DNA of 64,000 nt from Otis tarda (taxonomy: Eukaryota > Chordata > Aves > Otidiformes > Otididae). Below, piece by piece: positions 7,516 through 48,600 of this stretch (positions are counted from its first letter, which is position 1; every line of letters starts with the position of its first letter). The notes under the pieces are model-generated. The model saw only the letters and a program-made list of their open reading frames with translations, was not told the DNA's origin and searched no databases. The stretch lies in NCBI GenBank assembly GCA_026413225.1, contig CM048553.1:97252190-97316189 (forward strand), in the 5' to 3' direction. Made by a program: the position numbers and the translations under genes.

Positions 7516-8310
7516 GAAAGCATCCAGAGGGACCTTGACAGGCTGGAGAGGTGGGCCCGTGCCAACCTCATGAAGTTCAACCAGGCCAAGTGCAAGGGCC
7601 TGCACCTGGGTCGTGGCAATCCCAGGCACAAATACAGGCTGGGTGGGGAATGGATCAAGACCTTCCCAGAGCAGAGGGACTTGGGAGTGCTGGTGGACGA
7701 GAAGCTCAACATGAGCAGGCAATATGCCCTTGCGGCCCAGGCAGCCAACGACATTCTGGGCTGCATCAAGAGAAGTGTGGCCAGCAGGTCGAGGGAGGTG
7801 ATTCTCTCCCTTTACTCTGCCCTGGTGAGACCCCCCTGGAGTACTGTGTCCAGTTCTGGAGCCCCCAGCACAAGAAGGACATGGACCAGTTGGAGAAGGT
7901 CCAGAGGAGGGCCACGAAGATGATAAGAGGGCTGGAGCACCTCTCCTATGAGGACAGGCTGAGAGAGTTGGTGCTGTCAGCCTAGAGAAGAGGAGGCTCC
8001 AGGGAGACCTTATAGCAGCCTTCCAGTACCTAATGGGGGCCTACACGAAAGATGGGGAGAAACTCTTTAGCAGGGCTTGCTGTGATAGGACTAGGGATAA
8101 CAATTTCAAAATAGAGGGAGGTAGATTTAGATTAGATATTAGAAAAATTTTTTTTTGCAGTGGAACAAGTTGCCCAGAGAGGTGGTGGATGCCCCATCCC
8201 TGGAAACGTTCAAGGCCGGGTTGGATGAGGCTCTGAGCAACCTGATCTGGTTGAAGATGTCCCTGCTTCTTGCAGGTCCCTTCCAACCCTAACCATTCTA
8301 TGATTTTATG
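7516..8310 (+). mobile_element. CR1-type LINE, 5'-truncated 3' end
   Basis: This is the 3' end of a chicken-repeat-1 (CR1) non-LTR retrotransposon. Translated pieces match the C-terminal part of the CR1 ORF2 reverse transcriptase: [35 protein letters not shown], then [20 protein letters not shown]. The reading frame breaks near 7830 and again further on (RFRLDIRK lies in a third frame), so the copy is dead. The element ends with the family's typical 3' sequence, CTTCCAACCCTAACCATTCTATGATTTTATG. It is truncated at the 5' end, as most CR1 copies are, and supports an avian or other archosaur/turtle origin for the window. Boundaries are approximate. Confidence 0.93.
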
Positions 8311-28830: not shown

Positions 28831-30177
28831 ACTGCATAGATGCCACCGTCGCGTATGTGCAATAAATTAGATGTGTTAGATTGATCTTCATAGGTGAGTG
28901 CTGGGAGTGACTTCAGGAAAATTATGAATATGCATGAAAAGTGAGGCACCTAAGGCAGGGTTAAGCAAAGCTTTGCATGTTGCCAGTAACGTCTCCTGTG
29001 GGATGTTACTCGTCAGGTGGGATCCACCTGCCTGGAAACACGCGGTCACCTTGGTGGCCTCCTGGGTCTTCTCAGCAGGCTGCGAATTTGTGAGGCGCAG
29101 TCGAGGGTGGGCAATGCGAATGTGTTCCCCCGGATGCGGGGGGACAGGCAGAATAGGTGGGATGTGGAAGTAACTCGTGGGGCAAACAGGCGTGGAAAGG
29201 GCTCATCTGCCCGAGGTTGCTCGCAGAGTTGGGGGGGACTCAAGAGTCCGGCTGCACTCTCAGTTTTTTGTAGCTACGAGCAGAGCCAGACTCCAAAAAA
29301 AGCGCCAATCCTGCGGGGAAAACAGTTTGAAAAAAAAAAAAAAAACCCGACTTCTGCTCTCGCAAAGCGCCCGACTCCTGCGTGCCGCAGAGTTGCTGTG
29401 GCCCGGGCTGTGCGTGTGCGTGTCTGCGAGGGGGGGGGGCGGGGGAGCTGGCGGAGGTGCCAAACCGGAGTGGGAGCATGTTTGCGTCCCGCGTGTGCGC
29501 GGAGGAGGGAGGGCTGTGACGGCGGAGGGGTGGGGGGGGGTCGCGCGCGGGGCAGCGCGTTTGAGGGGGTGGGGGAGAGGGGTGCGGGCGCGTGCCGCGT
29601 CGCGCGTGGGGCGGCTGCGCCTCCGCCGCCGGGAGGCAGCCGCGGCCGCCCCCCACCCCCCCACCCGTGCCTACGAGTGGGCAGCGGCCACAGAAACACC
29701 TCCCCGCATCCCCCCCGTCCCTGTCCCTTGCCCTCGCGTTGAGCGCTCCACCTGCAGAAGGTGCCCGGCCCACGGGCGCTGAATGCTGATGCTGTGAGGG
29801 AAGCTCGGCCCGGCCCGGCCCGGCGGCCCCGCCGCCGCCGCACACTTGGCTCTGCCCCTGGCCCCGCATCTCGCCGAAGGGCTCCCGGGAAATGCGGCAC
29901 TAGCACCCCCGCCCCGGCTCGGCACCGTTCCCCTCCTCCGCCTCCCCTGCTCTACAGCGCGGGGGGGAAGGGGGGGGTGTCCTCTTCGTTTTCTGTCGGA
30001 GCATCTTTTTTTTTTTTTTTCCTTTAGGAGGAGGAGGAGGGAAGGAGGGAGGTGTTCAATGAGGGCTCCTCGGACCCCCCCCCCTCGCCTGAGAGGTGCT
30101 GTCCCTCCCTGAGCGGAGAGGGGGGGGAGAGGAGCCGGGGAGGCAAAGGCAGGTCCTGCTCCTTTGCTCTGCCGCCG

Positions 30178-30231
30178 AGGAGAGAGGAGGAGAAGGAGAA
30201 GAAGGAGGAGGAGGAGGAGGAGGGTGGTGGG
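30178..30231 (+). repeat. (GGA/GAA)n purine repeat in the probable leader
   Basis: Repeats of GGA with a few GAA interruptions, upstream of the GABBR2 start codon. Complementary in sequence to the TCC repeat at 30525-30549. Confidence 0.8.
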
Positions 30232-30461
30232 GAGGGTGTCGGTGTGTGCGTGGTGTGTGTGGGGTTATTTATTTATTTATCGCTCCTGGTGGTTGCAGCT
30301 GGCAGACCTGGGAAGGAGTAGGCGCCATTGCCAGAAGGATTATTGCCAGGGGAGGGAAGGGAGGGAGGAGGGGGGGGGGCAGAGATTGGAGACCCCGAGG
30401 CTCCCCGGGAAGCGGAGACAGGCGGCTCTTTTCCTCCCGCCTCGGCTTCTGCCGCCAGAGG

Positions 30462-30476
30462 ATGCGCCCGGACTGA
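30462..30476 (+). other. Short uORF in the GABBR2 leader
   Basis: ATG CGC CCG GAC TGA encodes only four residues and ends 86 nt before the GABBR2 ATG. If included in the mRNA it could lower initiation at the main start. Its use is not shown. Confidence 0.4.
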
Positions 30477-30524
30477 GAGGGGCTCAGCTCCCTCCCGCCA
30501 CTCTGTCCGTCCCCCCATCCTCAG

Positions 30525-30549
30525 TCCTCCTCCTCCTCCTCCTCCTCCC
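30525..30549 (+). repeat. (TCC)n repeat just upstream of the GABBR2 start
   Basis: About eight TCC units followed by CCCCACCC, ending 13 nt before the ATG at 30563. Probably length-variable. Confidence 0.8.
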
Positions 30550-30562
30550 CCCACCCAGCAGC

Positions 30563-30877
30563 ATGCATCCCTCACCGCGGAGACCGGCCGCTGCCACCTC
30601 CAACCCTGCCATGCTTCTGCTGCTCCTGTGCCTGGGCTGGGCACCGCCGGGCTGGGGCTGGCCGAGGGGCAGCTCCCGGGGGGCGGCCGGGTTGCCCCCC
30701 AACGCCACCACGCCGATCTCCATCATGGGCTTGATGCCGCTTAGCCAGTCCGAGGAGGACCAGAAGAGCAAGATCGGCCGGGGGGTGCTGCCCGCCGTGC
30801 AGCTGGCCATGGATCAGATCCGCAACGAGTCCCTGCTCAACCCCTATTTCCTGGACCTGCGCCTTTACGACACGGAG
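30563..30877 (+). CDS. GABBR2: GABBR2 exon 1, GABA-B receptor subunit 2
   Basis: First coding exon of the class C GPCR that pairs with GABBR1 to make the metabotropic GABA-B receptor at the neuronal plasma membrane; subunit 2 couples to Gi/o and carries GABBR1 to the surface. The exon has 105 codons. An upstream ATG (A at -3) is followed 16 codons later by a second ATG (30611) that directly heads the signal peptide [17 protein letters not shown]; either could start translation, and I chose the first. The mature part begins near residue 36 and enters the Venus-flytrap domain: [41 protein letters not shown], near-identical to mammalian GABBR2. Sequons are NAT (47-49) and NES (88-90). The proline run that human GABBR2 has before its signal sequence is missing. 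The donor GAG|GTAGGG is phase 0, at the position where human exon 1 ends. The frame stays open into the GC-rich intron, which is not coding. Confidence 0.95.
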
Positions 30878-33800
30878 GTAGGGACCGCACGGGCGGGAGG
30901 CACCGCCGCCCCCCCGGTCCCGGGGCGCTGCGGGGGCCGGGGGCGCAAGGGCAGCGCGGGCGAGCGGGCCGGGGTTGCGGTTGCCGCCGGGGCCTCCTGC
31001 CGCCGGGGCAGATGCGGAGGGAGAGGCAGCGGGAGCCGGCGGGGGGGCCGTATCCGGAGCGGCTTCCCCGGCAGCCGGGGCTCGCCCGGGGCCGGCGGGG
31101 GCCGCTTGGCAGCCGGGTGGCTGCTGGTGACTGGGATCCGGCTGCCCTTGGCACGTAGGCGGGTGGGAGGAAGGCTGCCTCTGGCTGCCGCTCCCTTTCC
31201 CCAGCAAAGCTGTGGCCGCATCCCTCTCCCGGCCGCTACCCATTCAGCAACAGATGCACGCCGGCCGCTGCCCCCACCGCCTCACCCCTCCCGCCCCCCC
31301 CCAACCCCGCACCGGCCGTCCCCGTGCAGCGCCGGGACCCCGAGGGCAGCGGCCGCCGCGGTAGCTCCGCGTAGGAGGAGGAGGAGGCGGCGAGGAAGCT
31401 GTAGCAGGGTTTCGCCGGGTCTGTCTCCCTCCCTCTCCTCCGAAAGAGTTAAATTTGCAGTCCCTCTCCCCGCGGGGCGGCGGGGTGCCCTTCTCCGGAC
31501 CCTGCCCGGGGCCAGCTGGACTGGGATGGGCGAGGAGCGGATCTCTGCGCGGTGCTGAGCGGGGGGAACATCCTCCCTTTACCTAGCAAAGAAGAGAGGC
31601 AGGGAAGCGAGGCGAGGGCTTTGTCAAGTTGGTTCCCACCCCCGACTTGCCCCTCACCGCATTTTTGGTTTTGGTCAGAAGTTCGGCAACCGTGCGTGTT
31701 TGCGGAGGGCAGTGCGTGTTGGCTGGTGCGATGTGGGGGCCTCCCTGAAGATGGCACTGCTTTCCCGGGCAATGCCGGCCCCCGGTGAAGCAAGGGGCTG
31801 CTGGAAATCTTCCTGGCTGTGATTTAAGGAAGACCCCAGCTTCTCACCTTCGATGCTTAGCATCCTGGGATGGGCGAGCTGAGGGCAGCAGTGACAGGCT
31901 TCGTGATAGCGTCTCTGTCCCCTCAAAAACGACTACAAGAGCCTCTCCTTGTAGGGTGGCTGCTTTTTATTGACATACATATGTCATAGTATTTTTTTTT
32001 TTCAGATATCTCTGAACAGAAATGTGCAGAGGGCAGTGTTGCTGAAGATGGCATTTAGGAGACAGAACAGGCTGCCGTCGTGTCGCGTTGTGTGTGAACA
32101 AGGCTGAGATGTGAAAGGGGATACGGGCAGGATCAGCCTAGAGCAGCCGTTTGTTTCCTTAAGAAAAAAAAGAATCTGAGGGAACTCCGCAATCATAATG
32201 AAAAGAATTATGGGGGATTTTCTGAATGGCATTACCTGTTTCATAAAGTGAAGTACGTGTTAGAAAAAAAAAAATCACAGTTCTCCTAATCCTGTTTTCA
32301 TTACGTTATTCCATTTAAATCCTTCCCTTGGATGGAATTGTTACAAAAATAACACAGGCATAGGAAGTAGAGAAGCCTAGGCAAGATCTTACTTCTTCAT
32401 ATAGTAACATCATAATCAATAAGGTGCTGCACTTCATTGCAGTCAAAATATTTTGAAGTTCTTAATACAGATTTTGGGTTCTGAACTAGGCAGTTAGCAT
32501 TGAAATATTCAGGAAAAAATGCTCTGTTTCTTTTGGAATGAGTATCGGTTTCTTAAAAATTGCATTTTTACTGTTTTGTACTCTAGGGACATAAAGAATC
32601 AGGGTCATGTTGCCAGCTTGCCGTGCAGCTTTGAATGCTTTTAAGCAATTAATAAATGGATGGTGATGGAATGCTAAGTCAGGCGAACGTATATAACTGT
32701 AGTGTTGTTGGCTCATTATTGCATGCTTAATAGTGACAAGTAAATAACTGAGTGTTCACGAAGAGCGTTAGATTGACTGCACCAAACCAAAATAGACTAA
32801 TGGCTAGAATAGCCATTAAATACATAATGGCAGCGCAAACTTTCTCACCTCAGTTCAGGCATTACCTTTTTCCTTCAGTGCACTTAACGGTAAGCCGAAG
32901 GGTAGATGGCTCATCATGCCCACTTGGTCCTCAGCCTGTTTTCTGAGGTCGCCAAGAAATAGATGTGCCTGAAGTGCCTGGATCCTTATCATTGCGTAAT
33001 CACAGACCAGGGAGCAGTTCTGCCTCCCAGGGCTTCGCAGGTGATGCTTGTGACATTGTCGGCTCTTGAAAAGAGAATGGGGAGCCTTGAACACATGGGA
33101 TTTTTTTAATACCTTCAGAAATAATTGTGGTATATTCATAATGCTTAGGAAATGTGTGGCAGCAATTCAGAAACTCATCTATTCTCCCTCGTGTCTTTCC
33201 AAAACCTCCTGTTGTTGCAATTTTGCGTAATACATTAACAAAAAGCTCATGAAAAAATAATAATGAAAATAAACAAATTGCATTTTTTTTAAAAAATATG
33301 CATTCGGGTAGTTTTCTGTCAGGACTGAACTGAATATTTTAGTTTGCTTGATCTTTCCAGTTTGTATAACAAAGCATTATCATGCTTTACTTTGTGACCA
33401 ACCATCTGAGGATTGCAGTGTGACTTCTAAGTTCGACTGCTGTTTGTCAGCACTTGAACTTGCTAACCTTTGAGCACATCAGCACCAGCCCTAGTGTTTT
33501 TCAAAGCATTTAAACTTGATTAAGCACTTAAGTACAATCCTTCATCTGCACCTCAACCAGTTGCGATTGTGTGAATTGCATCGTTGTTGCAAAATACAAC
33601 CACAGGTTGCAGGAAGCACATAAAAATGCAAAGGCTTCTGTCTTGAGTATTTTTGATGGTTAAATGTATTTGGAGTGCAATCCTGATCCAGTTCGGTGGA
33701 CTCTGCTTTGCTACCTCGTGGGCATGTCTTCATCTATTTGGGCATTCTTCTGTGGGCTCAGCAATAAAACGAAGCTCAGGCGTAGGCATTTGCTGAGCTC

Positions 33801-42500: not shown

Positions 42501-45001
42501 ACTATGAGCCAAAGCTATGACTCATGGAGCCCCATGTTCCCACTCAGTTGGTGAAAATATTTAGGCATAGGAAGAAGAACAGTTCAGAGCACCTTAGCTG
42601 CTAAGGTTTGGCAGCATGAATGCCTCCCGCTTTCCTCCCCTCCTCTCCCTTAGTCAATGCTGAAATAATGCTGGTAAAGAAGGCTGGTCCAAGGACTATT
42701 CACCAACAAAATCCTGTTTAAGCCTCTAAGAAAGGTATTAAATGGGATTTAAGCAACATCTTGGCCTACACTGGCACTCTGCTCCAGGAAGAATCTCATC
42801 CTGAGTTTAAAAAGTGTTTAAAAAATATATTTTCAATAATCACATTATGGCGTCATAAGACTAAGCAACAGAGAATGCCTTTTAAGCCATTGTGTTAAAT
42901 TGTTGTGCAGGACTGTACTGCCAGAGTGTGCTTCCTACTTAGTGTTGTGCTCAGATAATGTGCTCAATTTCTCAGTCTAGGGAATTCCCGTAATAAATTT
43001 TGACCCTGCTGTGTTTGATTTGGGCATAGCCTTGTACAGGAAGAAAAGCCATATCTCCTTGCCCACACGAAGGACTCCGTGTGGCCTTGCTGCTTTCTGA
43101 CCATGGGCAGTGGTGACGAAGAAAAGCAGTGGTTATGCATCAGGTATTTCCTGATGTGTTTCATCTTGTGTTTGTGTCCAAGAATGAGTGGAGAGGAATA
43201 ATAATTGGTTGGGCTCCTTTCTTGCCCACCAAGTTGCACAAGTGAGCTGGCAAAAGAGTTGCTGTGGACAGTTAGTAATAAACTGAGCATATCTCCTGCT
43301 TTGGGCTATTTGCTGGGCCCAAGGCCCAAGGCCTCTTTATTCAATATTATTTACTTCTTTTTACATTTATTTATCTGTTTACTTCCATGCCCTCATGTCA
43401 TGCAATATATGGATTGTAAGTATAAATTAGAGTGTTTATAATTAGAGTTTATTTGGAGATCTTCTGTAGCAGCTTTTTTGTTGCACATCAGTTTCAAAAT
43501 AACTTATTGACCTGGAACAGTGTGTTTTGAAAATTAAAAAAACACCCTTCCTTTCTGCAGCAAACTAATACTTTGTTTTGAAATGTCAACTATTCACAAA
43601 ATAAATTGCCAAGCTCTGAACATATAATTTAAAATTTAATTTCTACCAAATCAAACTTCTGTCTATGAGCCCTTCCACTTGTTTTTCTTTCAGATTATTG
43701 AGTCATGAAAACCTCTGAGGTTTTGGGTTTCCATCCCAGCTTGGCACAGGGCATTTCTTTTGAAATCTTGAATTTCCACAAGATGGCAAAAGAATTTGCT
43801 GTTCAGCTGCATGTATAATGACACTGCACTAAAAATCTGAGCTTTTTTTTCTTCTCAGACAAACAGGCATCTCCCAGGCCAGATGTTCTTCCCTTTCCTG
43901 TCCTTGGGTTTTGCTCTTGCATTTCCCTCCCTTGCCTATGACAGCATCCCAGGAGGTGCAGGGGGCTTTTTCCTTACCGGAGAGCAGAGTGCATGGCTGC
44001 TGTGAAGGGGACAGGGAGGATGGTGCTTGCCTGAGGGGTAAGGTAGGCTGCAAGTGCTGGGGATCAGAGGTGCAGGTTCTTCTCTGGTGTGGTGGTCCCG
44101 TATATATTACCCTTCTGACCCTGGAGAGTTTTGGTTATCCTGCAGCAAAGAAGATGTTCTGCTGCATTACGCTTTTCTCTGTACTTCTGCATGCACAGCA
44201 TCCCTTCCGTTCCGTAGCCTGGCATATTACGTGGAAAACTGCAAATAGCCTGATGGAATTACTTCACTAGCTACGACCATATGTGAAATGCCTGTCAAAA
44301 GCTGTGTGACTGTACATAGGAGGAGCGGGCCTCAATTCTGTATTTGCTCAGAACTCACATCGATTTCAAGGGAAGCACAGGGTTTCTGAGCAAAGCAGAA
44401 TCAGGCAGAGGATATACAGCCTTGAGCTGATGCAACTTTTGCACTAGAAGTATATAAAATATTACCAGTACTTGAGACTGTGTATTGTCTGTTTGGTCTG
44501 TATGAAGCCAGTTGAAAATGTGATATGTGCAAGATAAAACAAACTGAAGCAATCTTCTGACCCAGTGTTGTACAGATTTCTGCAAATATGAGTTCAGTAT
44601 ACAACCACTCCGATCAATCCCTAGAATATCCATTTTCAAAAGAATCGTGCTAGTTTGTTTATTGATTTGTCACCTATGGATGAGTATTTCTGCTACAGAA
44701 ATGTTTAAAATGACACATGTTTAAAATGAGACTTGGCAGAGCACTTTGCCTGGAGATTATTCTTGTGAAGTATTGATTCACAGCACTGCTGTGAGCTGGA
44801 TTACTGTCCAAATTGGAAAAGCCAGCCGTAGAGAGGTCTTTATCCTTTAATAACAATTAGCTCCTTTCTTAGAGGGACACAGCTGACTGAAGCAAAGGAA
44901 AGCTGCAAAATGTCGGGCAACCAGGGAATCTAAGGCCTGTTCTTCAGGGATGTGGGCTGCAGGGGAAGGGAAGATAAAAAAAGAGAAAAGCCCCAGAAAA
45001 G

Positions 45002-45247
45002 ATGGTTTTCTGGAACTGGAAACTTGACACGCTGGTGCTGTTTGTTTTACTGATAATCAGGTGCTCTGAGGAACGGGATCGCACTCGCCTCTCTCTCCTC
45101 GGGCTTTCACCCTCCAGCTGCCTGATTGATCGGAGAAACCTAACGGCAGGTGTGTTGCCTGCCATCCATCTAGCCTTGAAACATTTATACAAGCACTCGT
45201 GGATGCTGAAGAACTATGAGCTCCAAGTATCGTTCCACGACACGCAG
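45002..45247 (+). CDS. GABA-B receptor-like first coding exon (82 codons)
   Basis: An intact exon inside GABBR2 intron 1. The ATG context AAG-ATG-G is strong. Residues 8-20 (LDTLVLFVLLIIR) form a hydrophobic signal peptide. From residue 30 the protein reads LSLLGLSPSS, then NLTAGVLPAIHLALKHL and NYELQVSFHDTQ. By hand alignment about one third of residues equal GABBR2 exon 1 (GVLPA..LA..., ...Y.L......DT-). The YEL....HD piece also recalls GABBR1, so it is a member of the GABA-B ligand-binding family and not a recent copy of GABBR2. The exon ends at CAG|GTAAAC, phase 0, at the same residue as GABBR2 exon 1. One sequon (NLT, 46-48) and a lone Cys40 are visible. It could be an alternative GABBR2 first exon or exon 1 of another GABA-B-like gene; no partner exon is visible downstream to 64000. 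The frame runs on to 45520 but that part shows no homology. Confidence 0.75.
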
Positions 45248-45559
45248 GTAAACGGATGTAGATGTAGAGCTGTGCAATGTTTGAGCCTCCTCTGTGATCA
45301 TGCTTTTGAAAGCTTGGGACTGAATCCCTTCCTGGCAAATCCCGCTCTGCTGAGATACAGCAAATGTCACTGTCTGGAAAAGTTTGGGCTGTTAGGTGAG
45401 TGCCTGACTGTGACGGGCACCTGGCAGTGCAATCGTGCCCTGCTGGTGCTAGAAGTGGGAATAAAGAGCGTGCAAATTAAGAGGGATGGCAAACACCTAT
45501 GGTTCTTTGGGTGTTTCTGAGGTTCCCAGAAAGCTTTCCCCAAATCCACAGCTTGCTGA

Positions 45560-45655
45560 GTGGCTCTGTTCTTCTGCACCGTCTTCTGCATCTTGCTCTT
45601 CCTGCTTTCTCCGATGGCAGCCCTAGAGATCACCGTCATCTATTTCCACTTCCGC
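45560..45655 (+). other. Hydrophobic coding-like stretch ending at a splice donor
   Basis: Read in one frame this gives ALFFCTVFCILLFLLSPMAA followed by LEITVIYFHFR, then the strong donor CGC|GTGAGT. It lies 310 nt after the GABA-B-like exon and shares its raised GC content. A stop codon immediately upstream (45557-45559) and a poor acceptor argue against a normal internal exon. I do not recognise the protein. Confidence 0.2.
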
Positions 45656-48600
45656 GTGAGTGGGAGAGAGGTTTGTGCTGTGCCAGCCGGGCAGGGGGTT
45701 TGCCTGTGTAAAGCCTTGCTTGCCGGTTCGGCTAAAAAATAAGGGCTGATACAAGAGGTTAGTGTTCTGAGGAGCTAGATATAAAGAGTATTGAGATGAA
45801 GTCTGTTGTCTTAATACTTTCAAATTTGAGAAAAGCTGTGGTTTTAACTTTTTCTTCTAAGACTGAGATACCTCTTTTATCTTCTGTACAGACGTTAAAT
45901 CAAGACAATTAATTTCCTGGCCTGTCTTTTAGGCTGGCCAAAATAACTGTGACAAAATTAAGATGGGAGACTCACATATCAGGGTGATCTGGGACTGTAA
46001 ACCTGTTCTTAAGGAGATTTCCACTGATTTGAGCTTCCGTCTCCTGCATCGGGGGCGTGTTGTGGAGCAGATGCCTTCAGACTCATTCACGCTTACATGC
46101 ATATGTGCACACAGGCTGCATACATGGTAGCAGACCGCTTCATATTTTGAAGTTGCAAAGCAGTGCATCTAAACATATTTGCTTATCTATAAACCTTTAA
46201 ACATGGACTACACTGTTATGATTATGTTATAGAAATTTGACGTTATTCCACAAATAACAGTTGCACTGCATTATATGATGGGAAGAAGGTATTATATGTC
46301 TTCTTTTGAAGCGTTAGAAAATTATCCAAGGGAGAAATTCTAATGTAATTTTAATTGTGTATTTGGTTCATAAGCACTTATGTGCAATTTTTGAAGTGCT
46401 TAACATATAACAAACATGATACCATATGCTATAAAGTTACTTGAGGATAGCTTCCATGTTTAATAGTGTAACACAGAGGTAACAACTGCATATACTCTTT
46501 AAGAAAATGTCTATCTTGTAAATTGCTTCACATACAATTCACTGTTTTATTTATTTGTTTGTAAGTTCCTACTGGAAGTGTAATTATAGATATGCAGTCC
46601 TGAAAAAAAGCGTACATCTTGGTTTCTCATGTAAAAAGATGAAGACATGCAGTAACATATCAGCTTAAATAACTGGAAAGGGTAGATGTAAGTTTAAGTG
46701 GGCAGCAATTAAAACCTACTGGTATTTGCTCAGATTCCTTTTTCTGTTGGGCTGGAGGAGCTGTAGGTGGATGTTTATTTGTTAATTGTGTTTGCATAGT
46801 TTCCAGTTCTAGGAGCAACTCAAAAATATTTTTTCCCACATAAACATTCAATAGATTTGAATGGCAGAACTTCAGCTCTCTCGCACTGACCTCTACAATT
46901 TGAATTGAAATATTGAAGTAATCTGTAATTATCTTTTTGAAACAGCCCCTGGAAAAAGACATGTCATGATGACTTGTAACAGATTAACAAAATGTGGGAC
47001 ATGAAGATTTCTGATTTTTCTTCCTAGTTGTGAGAGTAGGGCACACAGTCTTGAGTTTTAGGTACTGATTACAGGCAAGCTGCAGAGGTCCTTGGGTTTA
47101 ATAGTTTCTCAGGGACAGTATGGATGCGAGAGAGCTGATTCTGTTTATTAATGTTGTAAGCCCAGATCTGCCATATGTGACCTTACACAACCTTTCAATT
47201 AACTCTATTTTAAGTAGAAAATATAGATGCTTGGCTCTTTGGATGTGAGATCTTTCAGGAGTGGGACAGATAATTGGCTTTTTCGCATAGTTAACTAGGA
47301 AGAAAGAAAAGTTATGTCCAAAAATATTTGTGTTGTTTTTGCTGAAAAAAGAAGTGGAAAGAAATCACATCACCCAATACATGGTGTCGCACAGGGCTTG
47401 AACAGCATTGCAAGCTTTATTCATGAGCACAGGGGAGCAGGGTTGCGCTGTGTCCTGTGCCCCTGGGGTTTTGAATCCACGTCCTTTGGCTCCTGTGAGA
47501 AAGTGCTGCCCTGTTGAGTGGTAGAGTGTTTTGGGGAGAGATCTCAGTCTTTTGCTTTGCTACTGTTTTATTTCAACTAATTAAGCCGTCACTACTCCAG
47601 AATGTTAATGGTAACGATGAGGCAAAGGGAGCACTCTTGCAAGAACTGTCTGAGTTCTTTGTATGAAATGAAGCCGTTTCAGCAGGAGCCTTTGGGAAAA
47701 CTTTCTTCAGCAGAGTACTTTATAACCTGGTGGCTTTGGCACTGAGCTGAGAACTGAATGCTTTCTTTGGCTGATTTCTTTCAGGTCTCCTGTGATTTAA
47801 TATGCATTTCCTAATAACTGTGTTGTCAATTCCTTGGAAGTGGGAATCCTTTGAACACTCATGATGCAGCACTTCCACGTAAAAATGTGCTTAAATATTC
47901 ACTGAGAATGACAAACAAGTTAGTGATAATGACCTTCTAGTTTGGCAGATGGCTGCTTATCCCTCAAATGGTACATGTATGTCTGTAATATTTGTTTATT
48001 TATACCAGAAGGACAGTGTTAACAGGACTGATATGTCCCTCTTTTCCAGACACCCCAAGCTGGGGCATCTTGGAGAGGAGTGTGATGTGCTTCCCCCCTC
48101 TAACAGAAGCAGGGCTGAACTTGGGTTGTGTGGAGACACCTAATTCTTGAATTTTTTGATAAAAGGGGTGGGAAGGTAGAAAAACTGCTTCTGCAGATTT
48201 GTGAATCCAACCATTGAGCAGCTTTTTAGTGTAGCAGGGGAAATCATGCCCTTGCGATTTTTACCCGTGGGGGTGGGCAGACAGGTATGATTGAGCTGTC
48301 TGCGTATCACTTTTATTTCTGTCTTTCACCCACCGTATGGCTGACATCTGGAGGCTCTCCTTCTACGTCATCCTCAGGGTGACCAGGCTGATGGATTCTT
48401 ACAGGCTTAGGCAAATCTAAAAATAGTTTTACTGGTGGATAAAGAAGAATATTGTGGTTGTTCAGAGTTATTCTTCTGTTCTTACCTAATTTTCTGTGAG
48501 CTAGTAGCCAATACAAGGACTGTGAAGCCAATGCTTTGATTAGCGAGGATGTTAACAGGAAACATTCACGTGCTGTAACTGGGACATGGCTTGAGCGTAC

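Follow-up and report, generated by a model that had tools for sequence, protein, structure and literature searches.

Within the 64,000-bp stretch of Otis tarda DNA analysed here (the window), intron 1 of the GABBR2 gene contains a second GB2-type first exon of 82 codons, exon 1B, which is probably an alternative first exon of GABBR2 that would be spliced to exon 2. The window sits in a contig of 164.8 Mb, part of a genome of 1.198 Gb, and a genome search placed the GABBR2 exon matches on the same strand of this contig, from 97.28 to 97.78 Mb. The features of the window on which the analysis is built are the following:

30563..30877, + strand: coding part of the canonical exon 1 of GABBR2 (exon 1A), recognized by its translation, its phase-0 donor and the genome search
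44910..44977, + strand: upstream stretch limiting translation, with out-of-frame ATGs at 44910 and 44950 and the nearest in-frame stop at 44975
45002..45247, + strand: exon 1B, the second GB2-type first exon, 82 codons ending in DTQ, recognized by its translation, phmmer, shuffles and HMM
45248..45253, + strand: splice donor of exon 1B, GTAAAC after CAG, phase 0, PWM score 7.55

General features of the GABBR2 locus

Exon 1A, whose start was taken to be the in-frame ATG picked in this analysis, displays 60% identity with positions 4-112 of human GABBR2 in a whole-genome search. It lies in GC-rich and CpG-rich surroundings (CpG o/e of 0.69 over 29500-31500) and ends with DTE at 30877, in phase 0. 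Exon 1B is located 14.1 kb downstream on the same strand, in agreement with the 14 kb given by a first-pass annotation made from the sequence. Downstream of 1B, the next GABA-B-like exon detected was exon 2, positioned at 97,395,578 of the contig, 98 kb from 1B and again on the same strand; it opens in phase 0 with TGTGAC (CD), the beginning of CDNAKG, behind the pyrimidine-rich TCCTCCAG, and the phase of the 1B donor fits the conserved cysteine with which it starts. The GABBR1 gene of the same genome has an intron at the identical phase-0 position, between HHDSK and CDPG, so that the exon boundary shared by 1B and 1A looks like a family feature.

GABBR1 itself is found on a 1.1 Mb contig (698.8-706.4 kb), with its matched exons lying within about 8 kb, compared to 500 kb for GABBR2, and the GABBR1 exon piece examined has a GC3 of 1.0. 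Elsewhere in the window, open frames at 7551-7985 (+ strand) resemble, by eye, a fragment of a CR1-type retroelement, and the approximately 500 bases past the 1B donor (45248-45740) have an elevated GC content of about 0.5, elevated CpG counts of 5 and 8 per 246 bases, and a frame open to 45520.

The start codon of exon 1B (ATG at 45002) has A at -3 and G at +4, which is a good Kozak context. The translation begins with a hydrophobic leader, in which the stretch LVLFVLLII was read by eye as a putative signal peptide, and continues as LSLLGLSPSSC...GVLPAIHLALKHL...MLKNYELQVSFHDTQ. In order, it comprises the leader, a first strand, the GVLPA helix, a second strand and DTQ, the strand and helix labels being assigned by alignment to GB2. 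AlphaFold, with 1B aligned with 1A, gave a weak mean pLDDT of 51.9 and a helix at 47-65, the expected position of the GVLPA helix. The intact 82-codon exon, the Kozak ATG and the GVLPA-containing flytrap start announced in the first-pass annotation were all confirmed from the sequence and its translation, and so was the phase-0 donor at the residue where exon 1 of GABBR2 ends, DTQ being followed by GTAAAC in 1B and DTE by GTAGGG in 1A. In the PWM scoring the 1B donor reached 7.55, within the best 1.8% of the GTs over 144 kb, versus 7.82 for the donor of 1A. A search of the species' own genome found one convincing place for 1B; the second listed match (E 0.89) contains a stop.

The frame of 1B continues past the donor for 90 further codons, up to a stop at 45518-45520 (172 amino acids overall), and because it stays open beyond the donor, its openness alone is weak evidence for the exon. 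On this basis, read-through of the donor could yield a short secreted product of 172 amino acids, either independent or truncated; this is very improbable, as the match with GB2 reaches exactly to the donor and has the same end as 1A.

Homology of exon 1B with GABBR2

The resemblance between exons 1B and 1A goes beyond chance. Nineteen of 54 aligned residues are identical (35%), bearing out the match of about one third that had been estimated earlier by hand; the BLOSUM62 local score is 70, and both alignment gaps span whole codons. None of 20,000 shuffles reached this score (maximum 48). When all six frames of 144 kb were read for open stretches of 30 residues or more (2,853 in all), 1B came second to 1A itself, the next stretch scoring 40.

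In a phmmer search of 1B against PDB chains (20 matches, E up to 10), GABA-B subunit 2 occupied the first eight places, and the remaining twelve matches, from E 0.48, were all to one kinase. The best match was 9jqx_B (E 0.0079), followed by seven further GABA-B subunit 2 chains (E 0.015-0.04), the printed segment of which is presumably that of human GB2. Entry 9JQX is identified as the Drosophila GABA-B receptor in a passage of PMC12499500. The Pfam model ANF_receptor (PF01094) matched 1B with E 0.21 and 11 bits, under the curated cut-off of 25.4; the canonical exon 1A has no match whatever to this model, so that for a piece of this length the test carries little information. A GABA-B HMM built from human GB2, human GB1 and fly GB1 scored 1B at 12.6 bits (iE 0.0067), against 6.2 for the next real stretch and 4.3 for the best of 4,971 decoys. 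In a tblastn search with GABBR2 over 144 kb, 1B was retrieved at E 0.089.

A chance likeness of an intronic open frame would be in keeping with the shortness of 1B, its moderate identity and the Pfam and tblastn E values, but it is barely credible given that the score of 70 stands above every shuffle and above the next stretch in 144 kb, and that gene, strand, phase and boundary all coincide with GABBR2. Taken singly, the numbers for homology are moderate; they become convincing when the agreement in gene, strand, phase and boundary is added.

Subunit type and age of the split

Judged by its segment scores, 1B is GB2-type and not GB1-type: it scores 83 with human GB2, 81 with fly GB2 and 67 with GB2 of its own genome, versus 34 with human GB1 and 25 with fly GB1. 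The likeness of the YEL..HD segment to GABBR1, to which the first-pass annotation had drawn attention, is real but minor by these scores. Human and fly GB2 score 62 with each other, below the values that 1B reaches with either. Ahead of the second strand, 1B carries one residue that is absent from bird and human 1A; fly GB2 and the GB1s are likewise longer by one residue at this point. This hints that 1B branched off before the residue was lost from 1A.

Four tree topologies were compared for seven sequences and 55 columns. The best tree places 1B beside bird and human 1A and outside both; it is 6.1 lnL above a tree with 1B beside bird 1A alone (z 1.46), and 2.2 lnL above those that group 1B with fly GB2 (z 1.05) or place it outside GB2. 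A split between 1B and 1A that predates the bird-human split is favoured by these sequences, not significantly; the great age claimed for it at first is thus supported by the best tree and unproved, a bird-only origin being weakly disfavoured. We tentatively propose that the two first exons of GABBR2, used in a mutually exclusive way, may predate the bird-human split and have been retained since then, so that the resulting pair of GB2 subunits would differ in the upper flytrap lobe, and that mammals may have lost the second exon, which would be why it went unnoticed.

Selection, composition and upstream region of exon 1B

Exons 1B and 1A are identical at 25, 41 and 17 of 54 sites for codon positions 1, 2 and 3, respectively (position 1 versus position 2, Fisher P 0.003). 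Neutral drift was simulated from 1A to the same amino-acid identity (4,000 runs; kappa of 2, 4 and 6), with today's 1A standing in for the ancestor and a model without indels. The observed similarity score was reached in 0.18-0.25% of the runs for each of the three kappa values and the observed position-2 identity in 0.8-1.6%, 17-18% of the runs stayed stop-free, and drift alone needs 0.54-0.61 substitutions per site. Given the omission of indels and the use of today's 1A as ancestor, the simulation disfavours drift without proving that 1B is used. The selection that had been deduced from the intact frame is favoured by this result, on the basis of a single genome.

Codon-position composition gave no coding signal when 1B was compared with 165 stop-free intronic stretches: GC3-GC2 was as extreme as in 1B in 20 of them (14 of these of similar GC) and position asymmetry in 51. 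Exon 1B contains 11 CpG, compared to a mean of 1.95, and 0.9% of 246-base blocks reach this count, which is nonetheless not specific to the exon because the count is elevated in the two following 246-base blocks as well. No clear promoter was detected upstream of 1B, where the CpG o/e is 0.2 directly upstream, the flank is not CpG-rich and the nearest TATA-like word is 282 bases away. In the flank examined from 44801, the frame of the upstream ATG at 44950 reads across the start of 1B.

These observations bear on the possibility that 1B is a relic, a once-used first exon that is now silent or rarely transcribed and whose frame has remained open by luck or through recent disuse. Such a history, which we regard as rather unlikely, would account for the lack of a visible promoter, the upstream ATGs, the large divergence from 1A, the undistinctive coding-type composition, and the share of drift runs that remain stop-free. 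It is harder to reconcile with a start codon, leader, conserved core, donor and phase that are all intact together, or with a conservative similarity whose score was reached in about 0.2% of the drift runs; over the number of substitutions per site that drift requires, frameshifts, which lie outside the simulation, should also have collected.

Shared exon 2 or separate gene

Two readings had been offered in the first-pass annotation, an alternative first exon of GABBR2 or a further GABA-B-like subunit gene in tandem or nested at this locus. By tblastn over 144 kb (intron 1), no flytrap-type exon other than 1A, 1B and exon 2 was found above noise, and the GABA-B HMM, applied first to 144 kb and then to 224 kb (intron 1, and intron 2 up to its last kilobase) with a minimum of 20 residues per open stretch, detected solely the same three exons above noise. 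Introns 3 onward were covered by genome-wide searches only, in which very divergent exons could be missed. Pfam 7tm_3 matched 32 places in the genome, four of them near the locus (97.6-97.76 Mb) and all four overlapping GABBR2 exons; this search caught these four places of the GABBR2 7TM region, short of all such exons, and a divergent copy could escape it.

The second set of Venus-flytrap and 7TM exons that was to be looked for downstream did not appear, either in the scanned parts of introns 1 and 2 or as an extra 7tm_3 place near the locus. It is quite improbable that 1B opens a distinct GABA-B-like gene nested in or interleaved with GABBR2: an old paralogue could score with fly and human GB2 above the level at which these two score with each other, as 1B does, but with no further flytrap-type exon in the parts of introns 1 and 2 that were scanned and with all nearby 7tm_3 matches overlapping GABBR2 exons, a third-subunit gene is unsupported. 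With no rival exon found there, and with one convincing place in the genome, 1B most simply shares GABBR2 from exon 2 onward. The reading as an alternative first exon of GABBR2 fits the same strand, the same phase, exon 2 as the next GABA-B-like exon and a scan that brought up no competing exon.

Proposed mechanism

On the reading of 1B as an alternative first exon, GABBR2 would have a second promoter within intron 1, from which transcription would begin near 45 kb. Exon 1B would bring its own start codon and putative signal peptide, and would be spliced in phase 0 to exon 2, so that ...YELQVSFHDTQ would be joined to CDNAKG... at the junction. The predicted product is a GB2 subunit whose body, seven-helix domain and coiled coil would be the usual ones, with a different leader and with the first strand-helix-strand of the upper Venus-flytrap lobe replaced. 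Any functional difference might lie in tissue-restricted expression and in changed trafficking or GB1 pairing, rather than in the binding of ligand.

Comparison with known systems

GB1 isoforms and auxiliary proteins are credited with the diversity of GABA-B receptors, and GB2 is commonly regarded as one invariant partner. If expressed, 1B would represent a new N-terminal variant of the known GB2 subunit. A second GB2 front end would, if true, place diversity on the G-protein-coupling subunit, and it is possibly absent from the mammals used in most GABA-B work. No N-terminal or first-exon variant of GB2 was found in the titles, abstracts and passages covered by our literature search; genome annotations might hold one. 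In the passages retrieved, the variants treated in PMC2987798 are GB1 variants and GB2 first exons are not mentioned in PMC2670285 or PMC9138782, the word exon being absent from those of PMC2670285. The statement in PMC5143684, as found there in a passage, that each GABA-B subunit is encoded by one gene in mammals, birds and amphibians was counted against our reading of 1B, though it concerns genes rather than exons.

The closest comparison within the locus is exon 1A, which like 1B encodes a leader and the first strand-helix-strand with GVLPA, and ends in phase 0 with DT(E/Q) before the cysteine of exon 2; the two differ in that identity is limited to 19 of the 54 aligned residues, 1B is one residue longer from helix to second strand, and its flank is not CpG-rich. 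Drosophila GB2 (9JQX chain B) ends this segment with NDTQ, where 1B has DTQ, and its helix-strand segment is of equal length; unlike 1B, it represents a whole receptor. GABBR1a and GABBR1b arise from alternative promoters, which provide different N termini on one receptor body, and the proposed use of 1B would resemble this arrangement in having alternative starts and one receptor body. In GB1a, however, the added sushi domains precede the complete flytrap, whereas with 1B a portion of the flytrap would be exchanged, and this in GB2.
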